Shown here piece by piece: positions 14,417-32,159 of a DNA stretch of 64,000 nt. Below the pieces are notes generated by a model. That model had not been told where the DNA came from. It saw only the letters and a list, made by a program, of their open reading frames with translations, and searched no databases. Made by a program: the position numbers and the translations under genes. The DNA is taken from NCBI GenBank assembly GCA_001028815.1, contig LDJB01000004.1:77733-141732 (forward strand). Direction: 5' to 3'. Numbering within the stretch: the first letter of the stretch is position 1; every line of letters begins with the position of its first letter. This stretch comes from Peptococcaceae bacterium 1109 (GTDB lineage: Bacteria; Bacillota; Limnochordia; Darwinibacteriales; Darwinibacteriaceae).

Positions 14417-14454
14417 GGATTGTGAATAGCATTACAACCGAAGGAGGTCAATTG

Positions 14455-15786
14455 ATGAAGCGCAAGTTTGTGAGTGGTTTCCTTATCGTCGTCCTCGTCC
14501 TTTCTACCGTTCCTGCCTTTGCACTACCTGTGGATCCAGATTCGCCCCTGATCCCCATCGCCATGCGCGTCCTGGATAACGGCATGCGGATCATCGTTAA
14601 AGAGATCTCCACATACCCCATTGCTACAGTAAATGTGTGGGTGGGTGCAGGAGCCAAGGATGATCCTCCTGGCCTTTCTGGCCTAGCCCACTTCTTTGAA
14701 CACCTTACCTTTAAAGGAACCCCTTCCCGCCCCCGGGGCCAGATCGCCTATGAAGTTGAGTCCGTTGGGGGATATCTCAATGCCATGACGAGTCTCGACT
14801 TCACCACGTACTTTATCGTGGTTCCTTCCGATTACGCAGGCCTGGCTATGGAAATCCAGGCAGATGCCCTCAGGAACTCTCTCTTTGAACCAGGTGAAAT
14901 TGACCAAGAACGCTATGTCATCCATGAAGAAATTCGCCTGCGCCAAGATAGCCCCCAGACCCACCTACTAGATATGGTTTTGGCACACCTCTTCCCTGGC
15001 ACACCCTATGCCAAACAACCCATTGGGACCTTTGAGGAGTTGGCCAATGTGGATCGAAACGCTATGGTGGACTTCCATGCACAGTACTATGTACCCAACA
15101 ACATGGTCCTGGTAGTCGCGGGGAACGTCAGCGCCAAGGAGATCTTTGCCCAAGCAGAAGAGCTCTATGGCGACATGGAGCCTAAGGCTCTTCCTCCTAG
15201 CCAGTATATTCCCATTCCCAAGCTCGACAGCGTGATTACCGTGGACGAGGAGCGGGAGGTCAGCCAAAGCTACGTGTTCATTGGTTATCCCGCACCGGGC
15301 CTCAACACTCGGGATGCAGCGGCTTTGACCATGGCCAGCGTGATTCTGGGCCAAGGCCGAGCTTCCCGGCTGTACCGGGCAGTAGTTGAAGAGGAACAGT
15401 TAGTTAATGATGTAACTGCCCTTTACGACGGCTTCGCTGACATTGGCCTCTTTGGTATCTACGGAGAGGTCCCCTCTGAGAACGTAGAGCGTTTCACCGC
15501 TGCTGCTTTGGCAGAGATCGCTCGCTTGCAGGAGGAACTGGTTACCGAGGAAGAACTCGCCCGGGCTAAGACTGTAGCCCGCAGCAGCCTCGCATTCTCC
15601 AATCAGTCTTCCGATAACGTGGCTGTCTTTCTCGGCATCCGGGAGCTTTACGGCAGTGTGATGGAGGCAGTGAATCAAATCGCCATCCTTGAACAGGTCA
15701 CAGCTGAAGACATCCAGCGCGCTGCCCAGAGTTACCTGAGCTCCCAAGCCTATGTTCTTGGCCACATCCGGCCCGAGGGGAGGTAA
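14455..15786 (+). CDS. Exported M16 zinc peptidase, catalytic subunit
   Basis: The product is 443 residues. Residues 1-24 are a signal peptide (ends VPAFA). The M16 N-terminal domain carries the inverted zinc motif HFFEH near residue 76 and the distal Glu in HEEIRLRQD, so metal binding is intact. The C-terminal domain keeps SRLYRAV near 310, but where active single-chain M16 enzymes have an aromatic-Tyr motif (like GLAYSV) it has LVNDVTA. The missing substrate-binding Tyr is supplied by the partner gene six bases downstream. The ATG at 14455 is 7 bases after GGAGG; codons upstream are not translated. It likely works outside the cytoplasmic membrane as a heterodimer. Confidence 0.9.
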   Translation: MKRKFVSGFLIVVLVLSTVPAFALPVDPDSPLIPIAMRVLDNGMRIIVKEISTYPIATVNVWVGAGAKDDPPGLSGLAHFFEHLTFKGTPSRPRGQIAYEVESVGGYLNAMTSLDFTTYFIVVPSDYAGLAMEIQADALRNSLFEPGEIDQERYVIHEEIRLRQDSPQTHLLDMVLAHLFPGTPYAKQPIGTFEELANVDRNAMVDFHAQYYVPNNMVLVVAGNVSAKEIFAQAEELYGDMEPKALPPSQYIPIPKLDSVITVDEEREVSQSYVFIGYPAPGLNTRDAAALTMASVILGQGRASRLYRAVVEEEQLVNDVTALYDGFADIGLFGIYGEVPSENVERFTAAALAEIARLQEELVTEEELARAKTVARSSLAFSNQSSDNVAVFLGIRELYGSVMEAVNQIAILEQVTAEDIQRAAQSYLSSQAYVLGHIRPEGR

Positions 15787-15792
15787 TTAATA

Positions 15793-17112
15793 ATGAAGAG
15801 ATCTGTATGCCTAACTTTGGCAATCCTGTTAACACTTGCCACAAGTGCCATAGGGTCAGCCGCGGAACTGTCCATCACCGCCACCGTTGAGAAGGTGGTT
15901 CTCGACAATGGAGTCACTCTTTTGTTGAAAGAAAACCCCGCATTCGATATCATCGCGCTGAGCCTGTTAACTGGAGCTGGTTCGGTACACGATCCTGAAG
16001 GCTTAGAAGGGCTTACCTACCTCACCCAGCGCAACTTGCTCTCCGGGACTCACACCCGCTCTGGGCAGGATCTCGTTGTTGCTTTGGAATCTTTGGGTAT
16101 ACAGCTTCAGGCTACCGCCTCATATGACTACTCTGCCGTCCTGATGCAGGCAACTCCCAGCGCCTTTAGGCCAGGGCTAGATATCCTCATGGACATGCTG
16201 GAGAATCCTGCCTTCCCCGAGGCAGAGTTTGAGCGGGAGAGGCATACAGGTTTAGCCGAGTATGAGAGCCTGTATGACGAGCCCATAAACGCAGTGCTCT
16301 TTGGCTTTCTGGAAGTGTTCTACGGCGATCACCCGTACCGCTATTCCCCCTACGGCTCCGGGGAAGGGCTGCTGGCGGCAACAAGAGAGGATGCAGCCAA
16401 CTGGCATCGCTACATTTATCAGCCAGAGAAAATGGTCGTGGCGGTAGTGGGGAACTTCGCCACCGCCGAAATACTCCCTGTGCTTGAGGACCGCTTCGGC
16501 CGCTTGAAGGACAGCTTCCCAGGCACCCCCGTCCCCCGGGCGGATCAAAAATTCATCTATCCTGATGAAGACAGGCAGTTGGTCATTAACCTACCGACCC
16601 AAGCCGCGTTCATGGTGATCGGGTATCCCGCACCGGAAACCTTTGGGGAAGATGCCCCAGCCATGGCTGTGATCAACAGCGTGCTGGGGGAAGGTATGTC
16701 ATCCAGGCTGTTTACGGAGATCAGGGATAAGCGAGGCCTGGCCTACACCGTGCTCTCTCAGTATTCAGACCGCTTGGGCCCCTCGAGCCTCTTCACCTTC
16801 CTCGCCACCCATCCAGACAATGTGGATGAAGCTCGGGAACATGTGCTCTTGGAGATCCAGAGGTTTGCAGAAGAAGGGCTGTCGCCAGAAAAAATCGCGT
16901 GGGTGGCCGGGCAAAAACGCGGTGCCTTCATCAGGCAAAACGAGACCAACCTCAGCCAAAGCGCTCTCCTCGCGGTCGCTGAATTGGTTGGCTTTGGTTA
17001 CCAGTGGGTCGATGAGTACCTTCGCTTCTACGAAGAGGTCACTCCTGAGGATATCACTGCTGCAGCTCAGAAATACTTCCAGAACTACACAGAAGTGTTG
17101 ATTACCCCATGA
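15793..17112 (+). CDS. Exported M16-like subunit lacking the zinc site
   Basis: The product is 439 residues with a signal peptide (residues 1-23). The M16 fold is clear (VVLDNGVTLLLKENPAFDI, EGLEGLTYL, then NPAFPEAEFERE), but the zinc motif is gone: the position of HxxEH reads YLTQR. The C-terminal half keeps the Arg/Tyr substrate-binding motif SRLFTEIRDKRGLAYTV near residue 305. This is the expected partner of the preceding catalytic subunit, as in heterodimeric mitochondrial processing peptidase and some bacterial two-subunit M16 enzymes. The genes are six bases apart and end at a terminator at 17120. Confidence 0.9.
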   Translation: MKRSVCLTLAILLTLATSAIGSAAELSITATVEKVVLDNGVTLLLKENPAFDIIALSLLTGAGSVHDPEGLEGLTYLTQRNLLSGTHTRSGQDLVVALESLGIQLQATASYDYSAVLMQATPSAFRPGLDILMDMLENPAFPEAEFERERHTGLAEYESLYDEPINAVLFGFLEVFYGDHPYRYSPYGSGEGLLAATREDAANWHRYIYQPEKMVVAVVGNFATAEILPVLEDRFGRLKDSFPGTPVPRADQKFIYPDEDRQLVINLPTQAAFMVIGYPAPETFGEDAPAMAVINSVLGEGMSSRLFTEIRDKRGLAYTVLSQYSDRLGPSSLFTFLATHPDNVDEAREHVLLEIQRFAEEGLSPEKIAWVAGQKRGAFIRQNETNLSQSALLAVAELVGFGYQWVDEYLRFYEEVTPEDITAAAQKYFQNYTEVLITP

Positions 17113-18444: not shown

Positions 18445-20232
18445 TCACCTTTCCTCCAGTAGGTCCAAAAACTTCTCCACATCGGCTAAGCTGGTCTGGA
18501 CCGCCCGCTCCCAGAAGTCCTGCTTGGTCAGGTCTTCCCCTAAATGGGTGCGAGCCAGTTCTTCTACTGTCATTCGCCCTGTATCCTGCAAGAACCCTCT
18601 GTAAGCATGAGCGAAGCTAGGCCCTTCCTGGAGGGCTCGGCCGTAAATCCCCTGGCTCAAGAGATAGCCAAAGGTGTATGGGAAGTTGTAGAACGGTACT
18701 CCAGTAATGTAGAAATGCAGTTTAGAAGCCCAGAAATGGGGGTGGTACGATTTTAACCCATCGGCATAGGCTTCCCGCTGTGCCTCTTCCATCAGCTGGT
18801 TGAGCTCTGCCGCACTGACCAGCCCCTTCTTTCTCCGTTCGTAAAAGCGGGTTTCAAAGAGGAAGCGGGCATAGATATTCATGAACATAGCTGCAGCCTG
18901 GCCGATTTTGTTGTCCAGCAAGGCGAGGCGCTCGTCCTTCGATTGGGCCGTTCTAATAGCTGCATCGGCTACTACCAACTCCGCAAAGGTGGATGCGGTC
19001 TCTGCAACCCCCATGGCATAGCGCTGGTTCAAGGGCGGCATATCCTTGAGGACACTGCCGTGATACGCGTGGCCTAGCTCATGGGCGAGGGTGAAGACGT
19101 TGTCTGCAGTTCCGCTAAAGGTCATGAACACCCTGGATGCCTTAGACTTGGGGAAAGTGGTGCAGAAAGCACCAGGGCGCTTGCCTGGACGGTCCTCAGC
19201 CTCAATCCAGCGCTCTCGAAAGGCCTTAGCAGCAAGCTCTGCCATATCTTGGCTGAACTTGCCGAACTGCTCCAAGACAAACTGGGCCCCTTCTTCGTAG
19301 GTATATGTTTTCTGGGTCTCGCCAACAGGGGCGCTCACATCAAACCAGTCCAGGCCATCCAGGCCCAGAAGTCCTGCCTTTGCCTGGAAATAATCCAACA
19401 GGCGGGCCCGGCCCCCTTCCACCGCTGCCCACATAGCATCCAGTGTCTCCCGGGACATACGGTTAATCATCAAGGGTTCCTCAAGCACCGAATCCCAACC
19501 CCGGGCCTTGTACAAGCTGAGGCGGAATCCAGCGAGGTGATTTAGGGCCGCGGCACACAGCTCCCCCGCCTCGCCCCATGCAGCCTCGAACTTGGCAAAC
19601 GCCTGCTGCCGCAAGGCACGATCAGGGCTGGCAAAAAGATTGGCAACCTGCCCCACAGACATCTCCTGAACTTGCCCTTCCCGCTCGATGGAGATGCTCA
19701 TCCGCCCAACGATTTTCGTGTTGTACAGTTCTCCCCAGGCATGATAGCCATCCACCGCCAACGCGCTGGCCAAAGCCTCCTGGCTTGCAGGGAGCCGCCG
19801 CCGGGCCTGAGTGCGCATTTCGTTTAGGGAAAAGGCCACTGGGCTCAGGCTAGGATGGGCGAGGACCGCCTCCCACTCCTCGTCGCTGAGCTGGAGCATT
19901 TGCTCCTCAATGCTGCTGCCGATGGAGCTCATCTCCGCGCGGATGCTCTGCACCTCTGCGCCGAGTTTCTGCGCTTCCAGATCTTTCACATTTTGAGCAG
20001 TTAGGCAGCTGATAAACGCAGAGGCCTGCCTCAGCTGTGCACCAACCTCTTGGAGGAGGTTCACCAAGCCCACCCACGACTCACTGCATGATTTTCCGCG
20101 ATTCTCAAAAACTGCATCCCTTAGTCTAGCTAGGTTTTCGTTCAGGTCCCGCAAGTATGAGCGGAAATCCGGGGAAGAACTCCCACCAGAAAAAAGGGTT
20201 TCTAGTTCCCAAGTAGAAGTATATTGTTTCAT
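18445..20232 (-). CDS. pepF: M3 family oligoendopeptidase F
   Basis: This 595-residue cytoplasmic zinc endopeptidase degrades short peptides. The catalytic motif HELGHAYHG lies near residue 386, with the third ligand in GVAETASTFAELVVAD near residue 412. The N-terminal helical half and ARFLFETRFYERRKKG are typical of the PepF clade, and length matches (about 600). GGGAGG lies 7 bases before the ATG at 20232. It leads an operon with the amidohydrolase and is divergent from the oligopeptide ABC importer at 20531, which would supply its substrates. Confidence 0.93.
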   Translation of the reverse strand: MKQYTSTWELETLFSGGSSSPDFRSYLRDLNENLARLRDAVFENRGKSCSESWVGLVNLLQEVGAQLRQASAFISCLTAQNVKDLEAQKLGAEVQSIRAEMSSIGSSIEEQMLQLSDEEWEAVLAHPSLSPVAFSLNEMRTQARRRLPASQEALASALAVDGYHAWGELYNTKIVGRMSISIEREGQVQEMSVGQVANLFASPDRALRQQAFAKFEAAWGEAGELCAAALNHLAGFRLSLYKARGWDSVLEEPLMINRMSRETLDAMWAAVEGGRARLLDYFQAKAGLLGLDGLDWFDVSAPVGETQKTYTYEEGAQFVLEQFGKFSQDMAELAAKAFRERWIEAEDRPGKRPGAFCTTFPKSKASRVFMTFSGTADNVFTLAHELGHAYHGSVLKDMPPLNQRYAMGVAETASTFAELVVADAAIRTAQSKDERLALLDNKIGQAAAMFMNIYARFLFETRFYERRKKGLVSAAELNQLMEEAQREAYADGLKSYHPHFWASKLHFYITGVPFYNFPYTFGYLLSQGIYGRALQEGPSFAHAYRGFLQDTGRMTVEELARTHLGEDLTKQDFWERAVQTSLADVEKFLDLLEER

Positions 20233-20530: not shown

Positions 20531-22987
20531 ATGAAACGCAAGCTAATCGTTGCTCTCTCACTCTTGCTGGTTTGTGCCTTTTCGGTTGGCGCCTTGGCTG
20601 CCACAGACCGCAAAGGAACCTGGGTAGATGAGGTAATCATCGTTGAAGAAAGCTCAATCAACACCGCAATATCCCGGTTGCAAGCTGGCGATATTGATGT
20701 CTGGGCAAGCACATCTTCTGATGTGACCGCCTTCAACACCGTTGTGAATGACCCCAATTTGGACTACTTCCAGGTGTTCGGTTCCTACACTGAAATCACC
20801 TTTAACCCGGTGGGGCCGTTCTTTAACGATGGCCGCTTCAATCCTCTGCATAACATGAAGATCAGGGAAGCGACCAACATCCTCATTGACCGCGACTACA
20901 TCGCGCAGGAAATCTACGGCGGCTTGGCTGTACCGAAGTACACCTTGCTGAACAGCTCCTTCGCAGATTATGCCCGTGTCGTGGAAAAGGCTCGGGAGCT
21001 TGAACTGAGATATGCTCCTGACTTCGAAGCTGCCAAAGCAACCATCCATGCTGAAATGATCGCCATGGGTGCCGAGCTCGTCAATGGCGTGTGGCACTAT
21101 GAAGGCCAACCCGTCGAGCTGAAGGTTCTTGCCCGCAGCGAGGACGAGCGGAAGGCCTTAGGTGAGTACTTCGCTGAACAGCTTGAAAAGGTCGGCTTCG
21201 CCACCACCGTTGAATACCGGACTGGTGCAGAAGCTTCCCCAATCTGGCTGATGGGCGATCCTTGGGAAGGCCAATGGCATGTTTACACCGGTGGCTGGAG
21301 TGCTCCTGTTGTCTATCGTGACCAAGGGCACATCTTCAACCAGATGTACACTCGCCGGACCATGACCCAACCGCTCTTCCAAGCTCTCGAACCCATTCCT
21401 GAGCTGGATGAACTTTCTGATAAGCTGTATCGGAAAGAGTTCACCACAATGGCAGAGCGCAAGGCACTTTACGAGCGTGCGCTAGAACTCGCATTCCTCG
21501 ATTCGCCACGGATCTTTGTCGTTGACCAAGTATCCTTCCTGCCTCGCCGTGCGGAAATCGCCGTTGCTTCTGACCTGGCAGGTGGCGTATCCGGAACTGG
21601 CCTGTGGCCAAGCACTCTCCGGAGAGGCAACGAAATCGGCGGAACCATCACCTTTGGTTCACAGCAAGTCTTGGTTGAGCCTTGGAACCCTGTAGCTGGC
21701 TCCAACTGGACATTTGACCAGCTGCCAATTAGGGCTACATTCGACCGTGGCTTCATGACCAACCCATTCACCGGTAACTACCATCCGCACCGCATCGAGC
21801 GCATGGAAGTAACCGTTGAAGCAGGCCTGCCAGTTTCCAAGTCTATGGACTGGGTAGATCTCAGCTTTGAAGATGAGATCGTAGTGCCTGGCGACGCTTG
21901 GGCAGAATGGGATCCTGTGGAACAGCGGTTCATCACCGTGGCCGAGAAGTGGCCCGAGGGTATCACTGCTAAGCGCAAGAGCGTAATGTTCTACAGAGAA
22001 GACCTGTATGATACAGTGAAGTGGCATGATGGCAGCAAGTGGCACATCGTAGACGCACTCCTGCCCTTCATCATGAGCTTTGACCAAGGCATGGAAGACA
22101 GCCCGTTCTACGATCCGGCAGCTGCCGCTAGCCTCCAGACTCTGTTGGCAGCCTTCAGAGGCCTGAAGATTCTCTCCATCGATCCATTCATCTACGAGTA
22201 CTACACAGAATCGTGGTCACTGGATGCGGAGCAGAACCTCAGCGACATCTTCGCTGTAATGTACAACTATGGTAAGGCACCATGGCATACACTGTCCATC
22301 GGCTTGCTGGCCGAACTCAACGGTGAGCTGGCATTCTCCGCCTCCAAGGCTAACACCCTGGACGCTGAGTGGCTTGGCTATCAGTCCGGCCCAAGCTTGC
22401 CTATCCTGGACAAGTGGCTTGACTACGCTATCGAGAACAACTACATTCCTTACGCCGACTTCCTCAAGGATTACATCACCGAGGAAGAGATCGCCGCTCG
22501 CTACGCAAATGCGAAGAAGTGGTATCAAGAGAAGGGACACTTCTGGATCGGCGACGGCCCAATGTATCTCGAGCGGGCATACCCAGTGGAGAAGATGGTC
22601 CACCTCAAGCGGTTTGAGGACTACTCGGAGCCTGCAGACAAGTGGTCCATGTTCGATGAGCCACGGGTAGCCGAAGTTGAAGTCAATGGTCCTTCACGGG
22701 TCCGTGCCGGTGCCGAGGCAGTCTTTGAAGTAGCAATCTCCTTCAAGGGCGAACCATACGCTATCGAGCACATCCAAGAAGTAAAGTTCCTCGTGCTTGA
22801 CGCAGCTGGTAATGTTGCATTGAGCGGCGTTGGTGAAGGCGTTGTGGATGGTCTGTTCCAGGTCGTGCTCACTCCTGAGCAAACAGCTAGCTTGCCTGTG
22901 GGTTCCAACACCCTGGATGTGATTGTCCTTCCAACCCTGGTCGGAGGCGCAACATTCGGTTCGCACACCTTCGTGACACTGCCATAA
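20531..22987 (+). CDS. Family 5 (peptide-type) ABC substrate-binding protein, apparently circularly permuted
   Basis: The product is 818 residues, far above the usual 530-600. Residues 1-27 are a signal peptide (ends ALA). The mature protein opens with the part normally in the middle of the family: WVDEVIIVEES, a LQAGDIDVWA motif near 58, and REATNILIDRDYIAQEIYGG near 117. The sequence that normally opens the family comes later: GGTITFGSQQ near 378, then NP, and VKWHDGSKW near 500; GDGPMYLERAYPVEKMVHLKR near 680 matches the end of the first lobe. A C-terminal Ig-like domain of about 95 residues follows. There is no lipobox. Codon use is more uniform than in its neighbours, as expected for an abundant protein. 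GGAAGGTGA precedes the ATG. Confidence 0.9.
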   Translation: MKRKLIVALSLLLVCAFSVGALAATDRKGTWVDEVIIVEESSINTAISRLQAGDIDVWASTSSDVTAFNTVVNDPNLDYFQVFGSYTEITFNPVGPFFNDGRFNPLHNMKIREATNILIDRDYIAQEIYGGLAVPKYTLLNSSFADYARVVEKARELELRYAPDFEAAKATIHAEMIAMGAELVNGVWHYEGQPVELKVLARSEDERKALGEYFAEQLEKVGFATTVEYRTGAEASPIWLMGDPWEGQWHVYTGGWSAPVVYRDQGHIFNQMYTRRTMTQPLFQALEPIPELDELSDKLYRKEFTTMAERKALYERALELAFLDSPRIFVVDQVSFLPRRAEIAVASDLAGGVSGTGLWPSTLRRGNEIGGTITFGSQQVLVEPWNPVAGSNWTFDQLPIRATFDRGFMTNPFTGNYHPHRIERMEVTVEAGLPVSKSMDWVDLSFEDEIVVPGDAWAEWDPVEQRFITVAEKWPEGITAKRKSVMFYREDLYDTVKWHDGSKWHIVDALLPFIMSFDQGMEDSPFYDPAAAASLQTLLAAFRGLKILSIDPFIYEYYTESWSLDAEQNLSDIFAVMYNYGKAPWHTLSIGLLAELNGELAFSASKANTLDAEWLGYQSGPSLPILDKWLDYAIENNYIPYADFLKDYITEEEIAARYANAKKWYQEKGHFWIGDGPMYLERAYPVEKMVHLKRFEDYSEPADKWSMFDEPRVAEVEVNGPSRVRAGAEAVFEVAISFKGEPYAIEHIQEVKFLVLDAAGNVALSGVGEGVVDGLFQVVLTPEQTASLPVGSNTLDVIVLPTLVGGATFGSHTFVTLP

Positions 22988-23050: not shown

Positions 23051-23096
23051 TTCGCCGTTCTTTGTTTGTTACAGGTCCATATTGGGAGGGGTAGTT

Positions 23097-24230
23097 GTGT
23101 CGAAAATTGAAACAACCGCTGATCGTGCCGTTCCTGCGAGGAGATCCGCGTCAGGGACTTTTGCGCGAATTGCCCGCTATACGCTGGTGCGGGGGTTGAC
23201 TCTTGTTATCACGGTTATTATTGGTGTCTACCTTGCTATCCTCATCGCTAATGGAGGCGGCTACGTAGACAAGATTCGGGAAGGGCAAATCCGGGAGCAA
23301 ATCAGTCTTTCCATTGCAGGGAACGAAGCGCTCCGGGATATGACCATGCAGGAACGGCGAGAGTACGAACAGAACTTAGTCGCCATCGAGCTTTCCCGCC
23401 GCGGTCTTGATCAGCCGTTTATGGTTCGGAGTTTCCGCTATCTGTGGAACGGCCTCACCCTTGATTTGGGTTCCGCGGAATATTTGCTCAGCGACAGCGG
23501 GTCTCGCCAAGTACGAAGCATTTTAGGGGAACGCTTAGGCCCCACTCTGCTCTTAATGGCTACCGGTCAATTGCTGCTCTTTTTCACAAGCGTCTTTTTT
23601 GCCCTCTTCTTATCTCGGCGCTACGGCAGTGTTATTGACCGTATTGTCGTGGCAATGGCTCCAACATCTGCAGCCCCAGCATGGTTTTACGGTATTTTTC
23701 TCATCTTGATATTTGCTGGACTCTTAGGCTGGCTGCCTTTCGGAGGCATGGTGGATGCACCGCCACCACCAAGCCCGTGGCTGCGGGCATTGAGTGTCAT
23801 CAAGCACCTTGTGCTCCCTGTAGGTGCGATTGTAATCAGTTCTATCTTCTATACTTCATACTACTGGCGGACTTTTTTCTTGATTTATTCCAGCGAAGAT
23901 TATGTGGATATGGCGAAGGCCAAAGGGCTGCCTTCCGGAGCAATTGAACGGCGTTATGTGCTCAGGCCTACCCTGCCCACCATCGTGACTAGTTTTGCCT
24001 TGACCTTAATCGGCTTGTGGACAGGCGCGATCGTCTTGGAAACTGTCTTTGGCTGGCCAGGAATCGGGCGCTTGACGCAGATGGCCATCAACCTGTTTGA
24101 CACGCCAGTTATCGTAGGGACGGTAGTGATTTACGCCTACCTCCTTGCCCTGACAGTCTTCTTGCTTGACATTGTGTATGCAATTGTCGACCCAAGAGTA
24201 AAACTTGGTGGAGGGGAACGCCGGTCATGA
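23097..24230 (+). CDS. Peptide-type ABC transporter permease (OppB/DppB-like)
   Basis: The product is 377 residues. The first helix (residues about 27-48) is followed by a long external loop of roughly 90 residues (through the segment around EQISLSIAG and MTMQERREYEQNLVAIELSRRG), then the usual five-helix permease core. The coupling motif that contacts the ATPase is DMAKAKGLPSGAIERRYVLRPTLP near residue 275. The start was set at GTG 23097, five bases after GGGAGGGG; the reading frame also has a TTG at 23082. The stop overlaps the next start (ATGA). It would form the importer pore with the next gene. Confidence 0.92.
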   Translation: MSKIETTADRAVPARRSASGTFARIARYTLVRGLTLVITVIIGVYLAILIANGGGYVDKIREGQIREQISLSIAGNEALRDMTMQERREYEQNLVAIELSRRGLDQPFMVRSFRYLWNGLTLDLGSAEYLLSDSGSRQVRSILGERLGPTLLLMATGQLLLFFTSVFFALFLSRRYGSVIDRIVVAMAPTSAAPAWFYGIFLILIFAGLLGWLPFGGMVDAPPPPSPWLRALSVIKHLVLPVGAIVISSIFYTSYYWRTFFLIYSSEDYVDMAKAKGLPSGAIERRYVLRPTLPTIVTSFALTLIGLWTGAIVLETVFGWPGIGRLTQMAINLFDTPVIVGTVVIYAYLLALTVFLLDIVYAIVDPRVKLGGGERRS

Positions 24231-25567
24231 CAAGACTTGCTAATCTTTTTCGAGAACTGCGAAGCTATCCCAGCGCTGTAGCTGGTGTATCCGTTATTGT
24301 AATCATGGTAATCATCGCTATCTACGCCATGGTTACCATCCCGTACAGTGAAGCTGTCCGCCTCTGGCGGGGCGGCGACAACGTGTGGCTGGAAACGCCC
24401 CGCAATGCTCGGCCCGCGTGGATCAACAACTTCCGCCGGGAAAAGCTGCCTGAGAGCATCATCATGAAGACCACCGAGGATCCCAGCCTCAAGACCGTTA
24501 TGGATCTAGGCGGTGGACTGGCCACGTCGGACATGTTGTTTGAGTTCGACTACTATTACGATGCATTTCCAAGTGAAATCTCCATGTTCTTTACCGCTCA
24601 GTTCAAGTCAGCCCGCCCTAACGTTTCTATCAAGTGGGTTACGCCAGATGGCCGTGAGATTCGCCTCACAGACCTGACTGTGCGCCAGAGCGAATCGTAC
24701 CGGATTTCCCAGGACAGTGCGGTCTCCCGCCGCTTGGGCGGCGTTCTCCCCGAAAAGGGGCTGTTTGCTGACCCCAATGACCCGAGCAAGGTGAACAAGG
24801 GTACCTATCAGGTTGTTGTGGAAGGACTCGTTTTTGAGGAAGGCTCAACCCTTGACGGATCACTCATCGTCTACGGGCAAGTCCACGGCCTCGCCGGTAC
24901 TGACCACAGGCGTCGGGACATCATGGTTGCTCTCCTGTGGGGGACACCCGTGGCCTTGGCCTTCGGCCTCTTGGCAGCAGTGGGGTCGTCGTTGACCACC
25001 ATGACTCTGGCTGCTGCAGCAGTATGGTTTGGCGGCTGGATAGACTACGCTATCCGCCGGATCAATGAAATCGTAATGATCTTACCGCTCCTCCCCATTT
25101 TGATTATGGTGGGCCTGTTCTACTCGCGAAGCATATGGGCCATCTTGGGAGTGGTAATCCTGCTGAGTATTTTCGGGTCAGGCATTTTGACCTACCGTTC
25201 AATGTTCCTCCAGGTGAAACAATCAGGGTATATCGAAGCGGCTCGGGCCTACGGCGCCAGCAATGCACGGATTATCTTCCGCTACATGGTGCCAAAAGTC
25301 ATTCCTGTTTTGATTCCCCAGTTTGTGGCACAGGTCCCCAACTACGTTTTTCTTGAAGCCACTTTGGCGGTCCTGGGGCTTGGCGACCCAGTCCTTCCCA
25401 CCTGGGGCAAACTCTTGAACGATGCTTATACCAGCGGCGCTCTGTTTAACGGCCACTATTATTGGGTTTTAGAACCAGCATTCCTGTTGGTAGTCACCGG
25501 CTTAGGCTTTGCCATGCTTGGCTTTGCCCTTGACCGAATCTTCAACCCACGTCTGAGGGGGTTATAG
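24227..25567 (+). CDS. Peptide-type ABC transporter permease (OppC/DppC-like) with large external insert
   Basis: The product is 446 residues, about 150 more than typical OppC. Helix 1 (residues 18-38) is followed by an insert of about 180 residues (to about 220) that looks like a soluble beta-rich domain, ending at GLAGTDHRRRDIMVALLWG, which corresponds to the family motif HxLGTDxxGRD. The five-helix core follows, with the ATPase-contacting EAARAYGASNARIIFRYMVPKVIP near residue 345. The insert probably faces outside and may contact the unusual binding protein encoded upstream. Translation is coupled to the preceding gene through the ATGA overlap. Confidence 0.92.
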   Translation: MTRLANLFRELRSYPSAVAGVSVIVIMVIIAIYAMVTIPYSEAVRLWRGGDNVWLETPRNARPAWINNFRREKLPESIIMKTTEDPSLKTVMDLGGGLATSDMLFEFDYYYDAFPSEISMFFTAQFKSARPNVSIKWVTPDGREIRLTDLTVRQSESYRISQDSAVSRRLGGVLPEKGLFADPNDPSKVNKGTYQVVVEGLVFEEGSTLDGSLIVYGQVHGLAGTDHRRRDIMVALLWGTPVALAFGLLAAVGSSLTTMTLAAAAVWFGGWIDYAIRRINEIVMILPLLPILIMVGLFYSRSIWAILGVVILLSIFGSGILTYRSMFLQVKQSGYIEAARAYGASNARIIFRYMVPKVIPVLIPQFVAQVPNYVFLEATLAVLGLGDPVLPTWGKLLNDAYTSGALFNGHYYWVLEPAFLLVVTGLGFAMLGFALDRIFNPRLRGL

Positions 25568-25572
25568 ATAGC

Positions 25573-26562
25573 ATGAAAAGCGATATTATACTAGATGTCC
25601 GCGACCTAAAGCTGCACTTCCGAACCAGAAAAGGTCCTGTCCAAGCAGTGGATGGCGTCACGTTCCAGCTGAAGCGTGGCCAGACCCTGGCGGTTGTAGG
25701 TGAGTCAGGCTGCGGCAAGACCTCTTTGGTAAAGGCTATTCTCCGCCTTCTACCGCGCAACATTGAAACATTCACCGGAGAAGTCTTTTTCAACGGTGTT
25801 GATGTAATGAAGTACAACGATGAGCGCTTCCGGAAAGAGATTCGGTGGACAAAGATGGCCATGGTGCCTCAAGCGTCCATGAACTCCCTCAACCCGGTCA
25901 TCCGGATTGAGGACCAGATTGCGGAGCCACTCTTCCTCCACGAGCCCGGCATCTCCCGGGAAAAGGCGATGCAGCGGGTTGCAGAAGTGTTCAAGGTGGT
26001 CGGCTTACCTCTGGACTTCCTCCAGCGCTATCCCTTTGAGCTGAGCGGAGGTATGCGCCAGCGTGCAACCATCGCCATGGCACTGGTTACTAACCCTGAA
26101 TTGGTTGTACTGGACGAGCCGTCCTCCGCTTTGGACCTGCTCACCCAGGCTAACCTGATGAACGTCTTGAAAAAGATTAAGCACGAATACGGCACCACCT
26201 TCATCCTCATCACACACGACATTGGCACAGCCAGCGAGCTCGCTGATGAGATCGCAGTGATGTACGCTGGAGAAATGGTGGAGCAGTGCAGTGCAGAATA
26301 CTTCTATACAGATGCAAGGCATCCATACTCACGCAAGCTCATGGCAAGCGTGCCCACTTTGCGGGAGGACAAGGAGCTCCAGTTCATTCCTGGCCAGCCC
26401 CCTTCCCTCATCAACCCACCCACAGGATGCCGGTTTGCAGACAGATGTGAACAGCGCTTTGGGAAGTGCAGTGAGCATCCGCCTGTAACAGAACTAGAGC
26501 ACCGCCAGCAAGTGCAGTGCTGGCTGTACGTTAATGGAAAGGGGGAGGTAAAGCATGCCTAA
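25573..26562 (+). CDS. Peptide-type ABC transporter ATP-binding protein (OppD/DppD-like)
   Basis: This 329-residue ATPase powers the importer. Walker A is GESGCGKTS near residue 43, the ABC signature LSGGMRQRATIAMAL near 158, Walker B LVVLDEPSSALD near 181 and the switch His in LITHD near 216. The C-terminal oligopeptide ATPase extension is present, with the Cys-containing TGCRFADRCEQRFGKC and final VQCWLY, which can hold an Fe-S cluster in some members. It starts six bases after the OppC-like gene and overlaps the next ATPase by eight bases. Confidence 0.93.
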   Translation: MKSDIILDVRDLKLHFRTRKGPVQAVDGVTFQLKRGQTLAVVGESGCGKTSLVKAILRLLPRNIETFTGEVFFNGVDVMKYNDERFRKEIRWTKMAMVPQASMNSLNPVIRIEDQIAEPLFLHEPGISREKAMQRVAEVFKVVGLPLDFLQRYPFELSGGMRQRATIAMALVTNPELVVLDEPSSALDLLTQANLMNVLKKIKHEYGTTFILITHDIGTASELADEIAVMYAGEMVEQCSAEYFYTDARHPYSRKLMASVPTLREDKELQFIPGQPPSLINPPTGCRFADRCEQRFGKCSEHPPVTELEHRQQVQCWLYVNGKGEVKHA

Positions 26563-27580
26563 CGCAGCACTGAAAGGGCAGCAAAAGCCAGCGGAAGAAA
26601 GAACACCGATTTTGGCTGTGGAAAACCTCCATACCTGGTTTGAAGTACGGCGTATGGGCTTCTTGAAAGCCGGTGACGTACGGGCCCTGGACGGGGTAAC
26701 ATTTGAGCTTTACGAGGGAGAAGCTCTCTCCATCGTGGGCGAGAGCGGCTGCGGCAAGAGCACCCTGGCCAAGACCATCCTCGGCCTGCACCATCCCACC
26801 AAGGGTAAGATTTATTTCCAAGGTACTGACGTCACGCAGCTAGACAAGGAGCAGACTAAGCAGTACCGGGCCAAAGTTGGCTATATTCAGCAGGATCCTT
26901 ACGGTGCACTTCCGCCCTTTATGACGGTGGAGCGCATCTTACGGGAACCCATGCTCATCAACGGCATTACAGATAAGGACGAGCAGAAGCGCCGCATCAG
27001 GCAGGTCTTGGAGGAAGTGAAGCTTGCTCCAATCGAGGACTTCTTGCCCAAGTTCCCGCACATGCTCAGCGGTGGGCAGCAACAGCGCTTGGTCATCGCC
27101 CGAGCCATGATCCTCGAGCCCAAGCTTCTGGTGGCCGACGAGCCAGTTTCCATGCTAGACGCCTCCGTGAGGGTGGAAATCCTCCAACTTCTCCGGAAGA
27201 TCCAGTATGACCATAACTTGGCCATCATCTATATCACCCACGACTTGTCAACTGTACGGTATTTCTCGGAGCGGATCTTCTCCATGTACGGTGCAAAGAT
27301 CATCGAGAAAGCCTCTACCAAGGCTCTCTTGAAGAACCCGCTTCACCCGTACACCAAGGCCCTGTTTGAGGCCACATCTGATCCTGATGCTGAAAACCTA
27401 AAGACCTTTAAGGAAGTACCAGCTGGGGAGCCGCCGAGCCTCATGAATCCGCCCAGTGGGTGCCGGTTCCACCCTCGCTGTTCCAAGATGATCCCAGGTC
27501 TGTGCGATCGGGAAATACCCCCTGAGTTCCAGGTAACAGACGACCAGTTTGCTGCCTGTTGGCTGTATCGGGAGTCATGA
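26555..27580 (+). CDS. Peptide-type ABC transporter ATP-binding protein (OppF/DppF-like)
   Basis: The product is 341 residues and the second ATPase of the importer. Walker A is GESGCGKST near residue 66, the signature LSGGQQQRLVIARAM near 172, and Walker B LLVADEPVSMLD near 195. The Cys-containing C-terminal extension SGCRFHPRCSKMIPGLC and AACWLY is present, matching that of its partner. GGGGGAGG lies 8 bases upstream of the ATG. The stop overlaps the start of the small membrane gene that ends the operon. Confidence 0.93.
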   Translation: MPNAALKGQQKPAEERTPILAVENLHTWFEVRRMGFLKAGDVRALDGVTFELYEGEALSIVGESGCGKSTLAKTILGLHHPTKGKIYFQGTDVTQLDKEQTKQYRAKVGYIQQDPYGALPPFMTVERILREPMLINGITDKDEQKRRIRQVLEEVKLAPIEDFLPKFPHMLSGGQQQRLVIARAMILEPKLLVADEPVSMLDASVRVEILQLLRKIQYDHNLAIIYITHDLSTVRYFSERIFSMYGAKIIEKASTKALLKNPLHPYTKALFEATSDPDAENLKTFKEVPAGEPPSLMNPPSGCRFHPRCSKMIPGLCDREIPPEFQVTDDQFAACWLYRES

Positions 27581-27820: not shown

Positions 27821-28822
27821 CTATGCTGTGGCAGCAGAGTAGACAGCGAGGGTGCGGCGGCCCATGAGCTCCAATGAGAAAAATTCCTCGGCAATCTCCC
27901 GGGCCTCCCGCCGCAGGGTAGGAAGCTCTCCTGATTCTGCTATTTCTAGAATATCTCGTAGGAGCACCTCTGGCCGGGGGCGAGGCAGATGGTACTGCGG
28001 CAGGGCATCTACAGCATAATTAGGGTTTAGAAGACGCTCTCTAGTCACTCGGCCGCCGTAGCCATGGCCCACAAGCATTCCTACACTGCCGCAGGCCATC
28101 GCTTCCCTGAGGGACCGCCCATGAGCAAAGGTGATATGGCTGGCCTGCAGCTGCTTGATGGGGTCATCGGTCCATCCTGTGAAAGGCATGTTTTGCACAG
28201 ACACATCTGCCTGGCCCAGGCCTGCGATGCGAATGTGTTGGGGCAGGCCTGGCGCCAGCTGATCGAGGGCCACAAGGCCCCGGTTGAGCCTTCCATCCAC
28301 TCTTCCGTACCACAGAACTGTAATCGGGTTGTCTGCAAGCTCATCCCCTGGTGTGAACACTGTTGTATCGATTCCGTTGGGGATGATCACGGTCTTATCC
28401 TTCCAAGGCCCCACAAACCGAGCTTGAGCAGGGCCTACCGCGATAATCCGGTTTGCCCCCGCCAGTACGCTCCAGTAGAATGGTGCCCACAGGTATACGG
28501 AATGGAGAGTTACAACCAAGGGGATCTCAAGCCGTTCTGAAGCAGACCGGGCTGCGTTAAACGTTAGATAGGAATGGGCATGGATCAAGTCGCACTGAGC
28601 TGCTTCTGCAATTTGCAGCAGCTCTGCATCGTCTTCATATTCCCAAATCTCCGTATCTCCCAGGCGCTGTTTGATAGCGAGGGCCTGCTCAGGAGAGGCA
28701 AAATCGGTTTTCAGAAATGCCGCGCTCACAGCCACAGAGTTCTGCTGACAGTACTTGATTAAGTCCAGCACGTGGGTCATCAGCCCGCTCTGGCACAGAA
28801 TTGAGGTCATAAGGACTCTCAT
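27821..28822 (-). CDS. Glycosyltransferase family 4 protein
   Basis: The product is 333 residues and a GT-B-fold glycosyltransferase. The N-terminal lobe has MRVLMTSILCQSGLMTHVLDL and LIHAHSYLTFNAA; the hinge has VIIPNGIDTTVFTPG near residue 145. The donor-binding lobe is short and its usual EAMACG motif is present as LREAMACGSVGMLVG near residue 247. The start was set at ATG 28822, six bases after GGAGG. It may act with the glycosyltransferase/pyruvyl transferase genes at 29122-32159, with which it is divergent. The acceptor and sugar are unknown. Confidence 0.85.
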   Translation of the reverse strand: MRVLMTSILCQSGLMTHVLDLIKYCQQNSVAVSAAFLKTDFASPEQALAIKQRLGDTEIWEYEDDAELLQIAEAAQCDLIHAHSYLTFNAARSASERLEIPLVVTLHSVYLWAPFYWSVLAGANRIIAVGPAQARFVGPWKDKTVIIPNGIDTTVFTPGDELADNPITVLWYGRVDGRLNRGLVALDQLAPGLPQHIRIAGLGQADVSVQNMPFTGWTDDPIKQLQASHITFAHGRSLREAMACGSVGMLVGHGYGGRVTRERLLNPNYAVDALPQYHLPRPRPEVLLRDILEIAESGELPTLRREAREIAEEFFSLELMGRRTLAVYSAATA

Positions 28823-28842
28823 GGACAACCTCCTGGCCTAGG

Positions 28843-28926
28843 CTATGAGCCGATATAGATGAGGGCAAGCAGTAAAAGGATCAAGCTGACCAGTATTATG
28901 ATGTTCACATTCAGTCCTGGATACAT
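28843..28926 (-). CDS. 27-residue YjcZ-like membrane peptide
   Basis: The predicted product is 27 residues: MYPGLNVN followed by one unbroken hydrophobic helix (about residues 9-25) and GS. GGGGGAGGG lies a few bases upstream of the ATG at 28926. The Tyr/Gly start and single Leu/Ile helix resemble the small YjcZ-type sporulation membrane proteins of Bacillota, though similarity at this length is weak. It is 21 bases upstream of, and on the same strand as, the family 4 glycosyltransferase and could be cotranscribed. Confidence 0.5.
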   Translation of the reverse strand: MYPGLNVNIIILVSLILLLLALIYIGS

Positions 28927-29082
28927 AGACTCCCTCCCCCTCTGTCTTGGTATTCCGGATGAACCGGGGCATATGTATTACTATGCTCTTGCGGCGAGAA
29001 GAGCCATGGTAACCTCGGACTAACCTGCAGCCATATGGGAACGCAATCTTAGCGCCTATCAGCCGACAGGCTCATATGCTGT

Positions 29083-29095
29083 AATGATTATCATT
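29083..29095 (+). promoter_or_regulatory. AATGATTATCATT palindrome, Fur-like half-matching box
   Basis: This perfect 13-base palindrome lies 27 bases before the start codon at 29122. With flanking bases it matches 11 of 14 specified positions of the Fur consensus TGATAATnATTATCA. It could bind Fur or PerR, but one match near a glycosyltransferase gene may be chance. Confidence 0.3.
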
Positions 29096-29121
29096 CCATC
29101 GCTACAGAGGAGGACCAGATC

Positions 29122-31110
29122 ATGAGCGAAGGCCCTAACACAGTCCAGAACGAACCGCTAAACATTCTCATGCTTGTAGACTCCCTCGGCATCGGGGGAA
29201 CGGAGACCCATGTCCTCGCCATAGCCAAAGTTCTGCAGAAGAAAGGCCATAACGTTATTATCGGAACAGGCGGCGGCCCCATGGCTTCCCGATACAAAGA
29301 CGCGGGCTTGGAAGTTTTCCTTATGCCTTTTCAATCAGACAATCCCCTTTACACGAACTATACTGCCCTCTTAGACCAGACTCGCAAGTTGGTGCGGGAA
29401 CGACAGATTCAGCTGATTCACGCCCACCAAATTGCCGGCCTCAAGGTGGCAGCGCAAATTTGGCAGGAACTGCTGGTTCCCCTGGTCTTTACAATACACG
29501 GTATGTTTTACCCTCGCAGGCGTCTGCAAAGCCTCATCGACAGCTGTGCCCACGTTATCGCGGTGAGCCCCCCCGCAGCGGCGTGGGCGAAAAAGCAGCT
29601 AGGGCTTCCCGCGTCCCAGATTAGCGTGATTCCTAACGGCATTGACATCAGCCACTTCAAACCTGGCACTGCTTCCTCCTTCAAGAATGAGCTGGGTATG
29701 GATGAGAAGCAGCCTCTCATCACGCTTTGCAGTAGAATCGCGTGGGGCAAGACGCGAGTGATCGAAGATGCTATCTATGCTGTGGAGGAGCTCCACCAAG
29801 CAGAAGGGGTGCACCTCGCCATTGTGGGCAGCGGCCCAGATAGCCCCTTTGTCCATGCGTTGGCCAACATGGTGAATCAACGGCAGGGATACGACATCAT
29901 CCATCTTACGGGAGCTATGCTCGACCCTGTAGATGCCTATCGGGCCGCTGACATCGTTATCGGTACTGCCCGAGTGGCTCTTGAAGCCATGAGTACGTGC
30001 ACTCCCGTAATCGCCGCTGGTAACTCTGGGTACTTTGGCCCTGTTACCCCTAGCAACTTCTCTCGGGGATGGGAAGTGTATTTTGGAGATCATGATTTCC
30101 TCACGCTCCCCAGCAAGAGCCAGCTTCAGCATGACATCACAGCGATGCTGCACGGCCGCATCAGAGCAGAACAGGACGTGCTGCGCAGATTAGTTGCTGC
30201 CCACTTCCGCATAGAAACCGTGGCTGGAGCTGTGGAAGAACTCTACCACCAAGTCATGGCGGGGGAAATTCGTCCCCGTGTAACCAACGTCAAGGCGGTA
30301 CCTACCCTACCTCAAGCTACGCCCAGCCCTGCGCCCCGCCCTGAGGCAAAGAAAGAGGCGGCTCCCGCCACACCTCCAGCTCAAATAGAGGCTAGCAGCC
30401 CCTTAGTGAGCGTTGTAATACCCACTTACAACAGAGCAAACCTTCTCAACGAATGCCTGAAATCCGTCTTTGAACAGACCTACCGTCCCCTAGAGGTGAT
30501 TGTTATCGATGATCATTCAACCGATGACACGGAGACAGTGGTAGCTAGCTGGGCCAAGAAGGCGGAAGAGACGGACGGCTTAACCTTCCACTACCACCGT
30601 TTGCACCGTAACCTAGGTTTTGCCAAGGCAGTGACCATGGGCTATCTGTTCGCTCAAGGAGCGTTTATCGCGAACCACGACTCAGATGACATCAGCCACC
30701 CTGACCGCATCACCCAACAAGTGCAGTTTCTCCAGCTTAACCCAGATCACAGCCTTGTTGGAACAAACTACGAAGTCTTCTCCGATGACGTCACCCAGCG
30801 CAAGAAGGCCTTTCTGGTCCGCTATGACAAGAACATCATCAGTTCTTACCGCGCGGGCCATCACTGCGTTTGCTTCGGCTCTCTCCTGATGCGGCGGGAG
30901 GTTATCGAACGCTTGGGGGGCCTCACTACGTTCCTTCAGGGCGCGGAAGACTACGAGTTCGTATCCAGAGCCATTGTCCAGGGCTTCAATGTGCAAAACC
31001 TCCGTACACCCCTCTATTACTACCGCGAACATGGCACACAGCGCTCTAAGGAGTTCTACGGGGTGCGCAGTGCCCTCACAAGCCAAGCGGTAGAAGGAGA
31101 AGGGGCATGA
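29122..31110 (+). CDS. Two-domain glycosyltransferase (family 4 plus family 2)
   Basis: This 662-residue fusion has two enzymes. Residues about 12-385 are a GT4, GT-B-fold unit (LGIGGTETHVLAIA near residue 21, HAHQIAGLKVAA near 94, VIPNGIDISHFKPG near 170 and EAMSTCTPVIAAGN near 290). Residues 390-430 are a Pro/Ala/Lys linker. Residues about 433-650 are a GT2, GT-A-fold unit with VSVVIPTYNRANLLNECLKS, VIDDHSTDDT and the metal motif HDSDD near 520. GAGGAGG precedes the ATG. The stop overlaps the pyruvyl transferase start as ATGA. Likely role: making a surface or spore-coat polysaccharide. Confidence 0.92.
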   Translation: MSEGPNTVQNEPLNILMLVDSLGIGGTETHVLAIAKVLQKKGHNVIIGTGGGPMASRYKDAGLEVFLMPFQSDNPLYTNYTALLDQTRKLVRERQIQLIHAHQIAGLKVAAQIWQELLVPLVFTIHGMFYPRRRLQSLIDSCAHVIAVSPPAAAWAKKQLGLPASQISVIPNGIDISHFKPGTASSFKNELGMDEKQPLITLCSRIAWGKTRVIEDAIYAVEELHQAEGVHLAIVGSGPDSPFVHALANMVNQRQGYDIIHLTGAMLDPVDAYRAADIVIGTARVALEAMSTCTPVIAAGNSGYFGPVTPSNFSRGWEVYFGDHDFLTLPSKSQLQHDITAMLHGRIRAEQDVLRRLVAAHFRIETVAGAVEELYHQVMAGEIRPRVTNVKAVPTLPQATPSPAPRPEAKKEAAPATPPAQIEASSPLVSVVIPTYNRANLLNECLKSVFEQTYRPLEVIVIDDHSTDDTETVVASWAKKAEETDGLTFHYHRLHRNLGFAKAVTMGYLFAQGAFIANHDSDDISHPDRITQQVQFLQLNPDHSLVGTNYEVFSDDVTQRKKAFLVRYDKNIISSYRAGHHCVCFGSLLMRREVIERLGGLTTFLQGAEDYEFVSRAIVQGFNVQNLRTPLYYYREHGTQRSKEFYGVRSALTSQAVEGEGA

Positions 31111-32159
31111 TGAAGCGCAAGGTGCTGTATGTCGGTTGGGTGGGATTCGGCAATCACGGCGATGATATCTGCCTGGACATCTTTACCAACCGTTTCCGCT
31201 CAGCAGGACAGAAAGCTGGACTGGAACTAGAAGTTGTTTCACTCTTCCCTTCGCGGTTTGACGAGTTCACTCTGGCGCGCATCAGCCCCCATCTGGTAGT
31301 CCTGGGAGCTGGCTCCCTATTTGAGATGGTCTATCTAAAGCCGCTGGCCCTGGCTCAACAGGCAGGAATCCCAACGGCCATCTGGGGTTCGGGCTATGAC
31401 AGTGCGGGGCAGGACATGGCAATACCCCACGACTTAGCCTATGCCCTGCGGCAAGTGGTTGCCGGTGCTCGAGCCGTGGGGATCCGGGGCCCTTATACTC
31501 TCGAGGCTCTGAAGTCCATTGGGGTGGAACACGACAGCCTTACTGTCACAGGTGACCCAGGCCTCCTATGGCCACCTGAGGGCCCGCAGGAGCCTCACGG
31601 TGAGGAAAGCCTTCCTCAGATCGCTGTAAACTGGGGGACTGCCAACAATAACGTGCTTGGCCGCAACGAGAAGCATACGGGAGCGCAGCTTGCACGGGTA
31701 CTCCAGGAACTAGCCGATGAACATCGCCTCCTCATCTACCCCATGTGGCCCAAAGACGTTGATCCCTGTCTCACCCTGGCTCATGCAGTAAATCGGCCAG
31801 ATCGAGTGCAAGTCTTAAGTGAGGTGCCCAGTCCGTCGGAACTGAAAGCCATCTACCTTGAGAGCATGTTCTCCATCAACATGAAGCTCCATGCAAACGT
31901 CTTTTCCGCAGCCCAAGGCTGTCCCTTTATTGCCCTAGCCTACCGCTGGAAATGCATGGACTTCGCAGAGTCCGTAGGCTGTGCCCATCTGGCAATCCCC
32001 TTTTCCGAGCCCAACTTGCAGGATAGACTCGGGGCCGCTGTAGCCTACGTCATTGGCCAATATGAAAGGCACAAGGCCCATGTGGAGAAGGAAGTCGCTG
32101 AAGCCCGGCTGCGCCTGAGGAAGCTTGAGGACCAGATGTTAGCACTCCTGAAAATGTAA
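31107..32159 (+). CDS. Polysaccharide pyruvyl transferase family protein (CsaB-like)
   Basis: The product is 350 residues. Members of this family add a pyruvate ketal from phosphoenolpyruvate to a sugar in cell-wall or spore-coat polymers; CsaB in bacilli does so to anchor S-layer proteins. Visible marks are GWVGFGNHGDDICLDIF near residue 10, VVLGAGSLFE near 67, GIRGPYTLEAL near 127, TGDPGLLW near 149 and the C-terminal MKLHANVFSAAQGCPFIAL near 262. The family's active site His/Arg region is intact as far as can be judged. It is translationally coupled to the upstream glycosyltransferase fusion. Confidence 0.88.
   Translation: MMKRKVLYVGWVGFGNHGDDICLDIFTNRFRSAGQKAGLELEVVSLFPSRFDEFTLARISPHLVVLGAGSLFEMVYLKPLALAQQAGIPTAIWGSGYDSAGQDMAIPHDLAYALRQVVAGARAVGIRGPYTLEALKSIGVEHDSLTVTGDPGLLWPPEGPQEPHGEESLPQIAVNWGTANNNVLGRNEKHTGAQLARVLQELADEHRLLIYPMWPKDVDPCLTLAHAVNRPDRVQVLSEVPSPSELKAIYLESMFSINMKLHANVFSAAQGCPFIALAYRWKCMDFAESVGCAHLAIPFSEPNLQDRLGAAVAYVIGQYERHKAHVEKEVAEARLRLRKLEDQMLALLKM

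Follow-up and report, generated by a model that had tools for sequence, protein, structure and literature searches.

A predicted circularly permuted cluster C substrate-binding protein heads a complete oppABCDF-type operon

In addition to oligopeptides, the ligands of cluster C substrate-binding proteins include nickel chelates, sugars and others. The solved structure closest to the protein described here is 7fi3, the archaeal OppA of Thermococcus kodakarensis (Yokoyama et al. 2022, Proteins 90:1434, as cited in PMC12136057), which according to the structure title was solved with a pentapeptide. A naturally permuted binding protein of an ABC importer has been described in Treponema pallidum, namely Tp0684/MglB-2, assigned to ‘Type Ic / cluster Bc’; it has a cluster B glucose-binding fold, and its permutation adds a fourth inter-lobe crossover (PMC4990184). 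In the open-access literature this cluster B glucose-binding protein was the only natural permutation found, with none for cluster C, and binding proteins seem to be naturally permuted only rarely.

The window analyzed here is the whole stretch of 64,000 nt that spans positions 77,733 to 141,732 on the forward strand of contig LDJB01000004.1, and window coordinates count from its position 1. It carries an intact open reading frame (20531-22987, + strand, ATG at 20531) encoding 818 aa, which are arranged from the N- to the C-terminus as a signal peptide with one hydrophobic segment (residues 5-23), two blocks of ~335 and ~350 residues, and a C-terminal domain that is ~107 residues long (Table 1). 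The first block comprises the final portion of domain I, the two crossovers, domain III and the canonical C-terminus, and the second contains the motifs GGTITFG..., KWHDGS and WIGDGPMYLE. The same genome encodes at least six canonical SBP_bac_5 proteins (paralogues L079-L084), which measure ~500-660 aa as open frames, in agreement with the ~550 aa against which the 818 aa had been set in the original prediction.

Table 1. Window coordinates of the parts of the 818-aa protein and of its gene neighbors
Feature	Position	Strand	Details
Signal peptide	20531..20599	+	AxA-type cleavage site, no lipobox; cleavage between MKRKLIVALSLLLVCAFSVGALA and ATD read directly
Canonical C-terminal half, placed first	20612..21616	+	Residues 28-362; Pfam, 7fi3, hhalign
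Canonical N-terminal half, placed second	21617..22666	+	Residues 363-712; 7fi3, hhalign
C-terminal Ig-like domain	22664..22984	+	Residues 712-818; pLDDT and structural matches
OppB-type permease	23082..24230	+	PF00528; start codon uncertain
OppC-type permease	24227..25567	+	PF00528 and OppC_N; beta-rich ectodomain of ~190 aa after TM1
OppD-type ATPase	25573..26562	+	ABC_tran and oligo_HPY
OppF-type ATPase	26555..27580	+	ABC_tran and oligo_HPY
Oligoendopeptidase F-type (PepF-type) peptidase, divergent	18445..20232	-	Peptidase_M3 and Peptidase_M3_N

The Pfam SBP_bac_5 profile matched residues 32-259 only, and the matched section corresponded to profile positions 148-349, with positions 1-147 missing ahead of it, as is expected of a permuted gene. 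When the protein was compared with 7fi3 by phmmer against the PDB, residues 76-258 aligned with chain residues 367-568 (i-E 2.8e-15) and residues 488-720 with chain residues 97-329 (i-E 9.6e-8), that is, in swapped order. A family profile of 15 members again yielded two swapped segments (i-E 1.1e-12 and 1.7e-26), with the N-terminal block corresponding to 7fi3 368-584, and a profile built from just the second block found 7fi3 102-310 (E 3.2e-14). Through hhalign against a template profile of the canonical-order paralogues from the same genome, query residues 5-320 matched template positions 221-514 and residues 358-677 matched positions 38-216, a swapped pair meeting at 216/221; after the blocks were exchanged, a single end-to-end match over template positions 31-514 was obtained, with a score of 165 vs 128 as encoded. 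Scanning all rotations of the core placed the score maximum at starts of ~residues 337-441, close to where the canonical termini meet, with a low score for the encoded order.

The strongest single test came from L115 (genome G138), a distant permuted relative 26% identical to the window protein, which aligns in swapped order with almost the entire 7fi3 chain. Its residues 28-315 matched chain residues 316-603 (i-E 1.5e-43), residues 391-717 matched 3-306 (i-E 3.9e-28), and residues 319-388 gave a weak match to 653-721. This indicates that the canonical C- and N-termini abut with ~2 residues between them, and places the new ends somewhere between residues 306 and 316 of the 7fi3 chain. By these alignments, the window protein is identified as a circularly permuted family-5 (cluster C) substrate-binding protein, as originally predicted from second-lobe motifs that precede first-lobe ones; the swapped alignments to 7fi3 and to the paralogues agree with that motif order, and the single match upon block exchange, the rotation scan and L115 bear out the permutation. 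Two complete domains in tandem are ruled out, since the two halves of the protein correspond to different halves of the profile. As the protein is homologous to both halves of SBP_bac_5 proteins but lacks their half order, it is, on the sequence comparisons, classed as a permuted variant related to cluster C and not as a canonical member. The permutation also explains why Pfam and NCBIfam recognize the protein only in part.

Comparison of a predicted structure with OppA, which had been proposed as a check, succeeded for one half only. The AlphaFold model of the full-length protein, built from 12 close relatives, was poor; its residues 1-363 had 7fi3 345-618 as their best structural match (Z 11.1, rmsd 9.1 over 219 residues), with numerous cluster C proteins ranking next, but the rejoined domain I was not seen in it. 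That residues 363-712 would complete domain I together with the first block is suggested by the alignments and not by this model. A published division of EppA into domains has the two hinge strands flanking domain III (PMC7312458). Based on the alignment and on stand-alone domain III paralogues, which span query residues ~84-335, both inter-lobe crossover regions were located within residues 28-362, the model itself, with a mean pLDDT of 46.6, being too poor for the strands to be made out. With both crossovers inside the contiguous first block, the hinge would be left intact by the permutation and flytrap closure is presumably unchanged, which lends no support to the earlier suggestion of a different lobe closing. 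Likewise, the proposed order of lobe 2 before lobe 1 holds for the swapped halves but not strictly for the structure, because the cut falls within the sequence of domain I, at Pfam position ~147.

Among relatives, the order of the halves was identical in all 38 complete proteins compared, as well as in an alignment of 15 members with identities as low as 46%. Matches were found in 43 of the 73 genomes of the class, a few of them being fragments or domain-III-only paralogues. With a query able to reveal either order, every core-spanning match in 398 phylum genomes was permuted, including members only 26-31% identical; the Pfam match starts at profile positions 146-148 in the window protein and the three most distant members. 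No canonical-order close relative was found in the 398 Bacillota genomes with either tandem queries or a profile of the canonical N-terminal half. A canonical-order binding protein of genome G425 (L137:1306-3183) showed similarity to distant permuted members, and its match covered domain III only. The viral contigs searched contained no relative, and among the plasmids searched, ordinary binding proteins matched, and only in part. Separately, several secreted proteins were observed to hold domain III only (query ~84-335), located behind InlB-B-repeat, Big or PKD-like domains (L015:3511-7035, at ~609.5-613.0 kb of C2 in the window's own genome, L017, L041 and L042); the L015 gene is interrupted by an IS3-type transposase insertion.

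In trees of the N-terminal half, the C-terminal half and both halves together, the canonical-order 7fi3 fell inside the permuted group, adjoining L072/L073, with supports of 97/94, 100/99 and 100/100, respectively. This nesting indicates that the order has probably changed at least twice. With L071 placed outside 7fi3 and L072/L073, a permutation followed by a return takes two changes, and independent permutations take three. A permuted-only clade was rejected when the two halves were combined (p-AU 0.0026 and 0.005) and with the canonical C-terminal half (p-AU 0.011), but the canonical N-terminal half alone is compatible with one clade (p-AU 0.13); moreover, the trees include a single archaeal sequence, in which part of the chain is missing, and they have long branches and an odd composition of L071-L073. 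Weighing the nesting and the rejected clade against these points, we consider the chances evenly balanced that the permuted order was not a single event, but either originated repeatedly at the same loop or was reverted to canonical in the archaeal OppA. This reading is compatible with the permutation itself. Leaning slightly toward doubt, we also consider that an order reversed two or more times at that loop, through a permuted ancestor and an archaeal return or through at least two independent permutations, might represent a natural topological switch.

The permuted gene opens a complete oppABCDF-type operon with intergenic gaps of ~95, -3, 6 and -7 bases, and the opp gene order is conserved beside the permuted gene in relatives. 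A model of the OppC-type permease matched DppC/OppC (Z 18.5), with its ectodomain (residues ~70-220) forming a beta sandwich; a weak structural likeness of the ectodomain to seipin and CBM folds (Z 7-8) was also observed. OppC proteins are 422-483 aa long beside permuted proteins, vs mostly 260-289 aa in the canonical operons of the same genome, where two reach 388 and 392 aa.

Based on its relatives and partner genes, the window protein most likely binds oligopeptides, closing on them like an ordinary Venus flytrap. Import of a non-peptide, such as a metallophore or an oligosaccharide, appears unlikely: the varied ligands of cluster C proteins would permit it, and the poor model drew Foldseek matches to NikA/NikZ, MelB and chitin-oligosaccharide binders, among others, but the closest relative of known ligand is the pentapeptide-bound 7fi3, and the permeases and ATPases bear Opp/Dpp-type signatures. 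The PepF-type neighbor was found again only in L004 of the same genus and was thus dropped as general evidence for peptides. Its gene points away from the operon and lies near two adjacent M16-type zinc peptidase-like genes (14422-17112), the first with an HFFEH motif. After the operon, a CsaB-like pyruvyl transferase (31107-32159) and glycosyltransferases (27821-31110) were read from the sequence only.

A chimera, in which the second half came from a different protein and reached the canonical fold by convergence, is very improbable, although the authors of the MglB-2 study considered such an origin for their own protein (PMC4990184) and Pfam leaves the canonical N-terminal half of the window protein unrecognized. 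Both halves match one and the same 7fi3 chain, and the canonical termini abut in L115; in addition, the deep branching, with the placement of 7fi3, is the same whichever half the tree is built from, which indicates that the halves share one history and favors permutation over a chimera. Mis-assembly, a frameshift or fused fragments of two neighboring binding-protein genes can be discarded, given a single open frame without stops and an order that, with near-identical length, recurs in independent assemblies at 45-82% identity and in all the complete relatives.

The extra C-terminal Ig-like domain, correctly anticipated in the original prediction, is the best-predicted part of the model, with a pLDDT of ~80-90 over most of model residues 690-775. 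It matched a filamin Ig domain and the MG domains of alpha-2-macroglobulin in structure (Z 8.4-8.6), with no Pfam family found and no sequence match in the PDB. A lipobox was present in three of the 38 complete permuted proteins (L067, L069 and L070, with FTAC, LAGC and ITGC, respectively), and exactly these three end after the second block and have no Ig-like domain, while the other 35 have a further C-terminal stretch at the Ig position and no lipobox. Two of the three are sisters in the tree, which reduces the mutual exclusion to about two independent cases. This exclusion suggests that the Ig-like domain may act as a tether, most likely replacing the lipid anchor and holding the protein near the transporter or the envelope. 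Docking of the Ig-like domain to the OppC ectodomain was dropped as an explanation, since genome G275 has the ectodomain without the domain, and a tie to the outer membrane was inconsistent with G321, which keeps the Ig-like domain and gave no Omp85 match. In the window's own genome Omp85 was present and LpxC, when looked for, was not found, which makes a soluble periplasmic binding protein reasonable. Among the Bacillota carriers of permuted proteins, G275, G251 and G321 gave no Omp85 match and possibly have no outer membrane; the other 15 tested gave an Omp85 match.

Taken as a whole, the locus is likely best explained by a permuted cluster C binding protein that serves an Opp/Dpp-type importer. 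The permutation, its conservation and the operon are demonstrated, and from these the following scheme may be drawn. The canonical termini, both in domain I, would have been joined by a very short linker, and new termini opened in the domain I loop between the canonical ‘NPDYW’ and ‘DEV-F’ strands. After export and cleavage of the signal peptide, the mature chain would start at the canonical mid-protein, run through domain III and back, continue into the canonical N-terminal half and end in the added Ig-like domain, which might take the place of a lipid anchor. The cleft would close on an oligopeptide in the usual Venus-flytrap manner, both the ligand class and the mode of closing being inferred, and the peptide would be handed to OppB/OppC with ATP energy from OppD/OppF.

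A permuted family that has its own operon and canonical relatives in the same genomes allows the effects of chain ends on closure, delivery and anchoring to be tested, and offers ready-made permuted scaffolds for biosensors. Like canonical SBP_bac_5/cluster C proteins (OppA, DppA, NikA, EppA and the paralogues L079-L084), the window protein is homologous in both halves and is accompanied by Opp/Dpp-type partner genes; unlike them, it has swapped halves, a cut at Pfam position ~147 and a C-terminal Ig-like domain, and its operon has an enlarged OppC ectodomain. With the archaeal OppA the homology likewise extends over both halves, but that protein has the canonical order, its halves running on at chain 306/316 with no Ig-like domain between them. 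Concerning MglB-2, the window protein matched SBP_bac_5 only and no sugar-binding family, so a cluster B sugar-binding fold was not found, and in contrast to the crossover added in MglB-2, the crossovers of the window protein appear unchanged.
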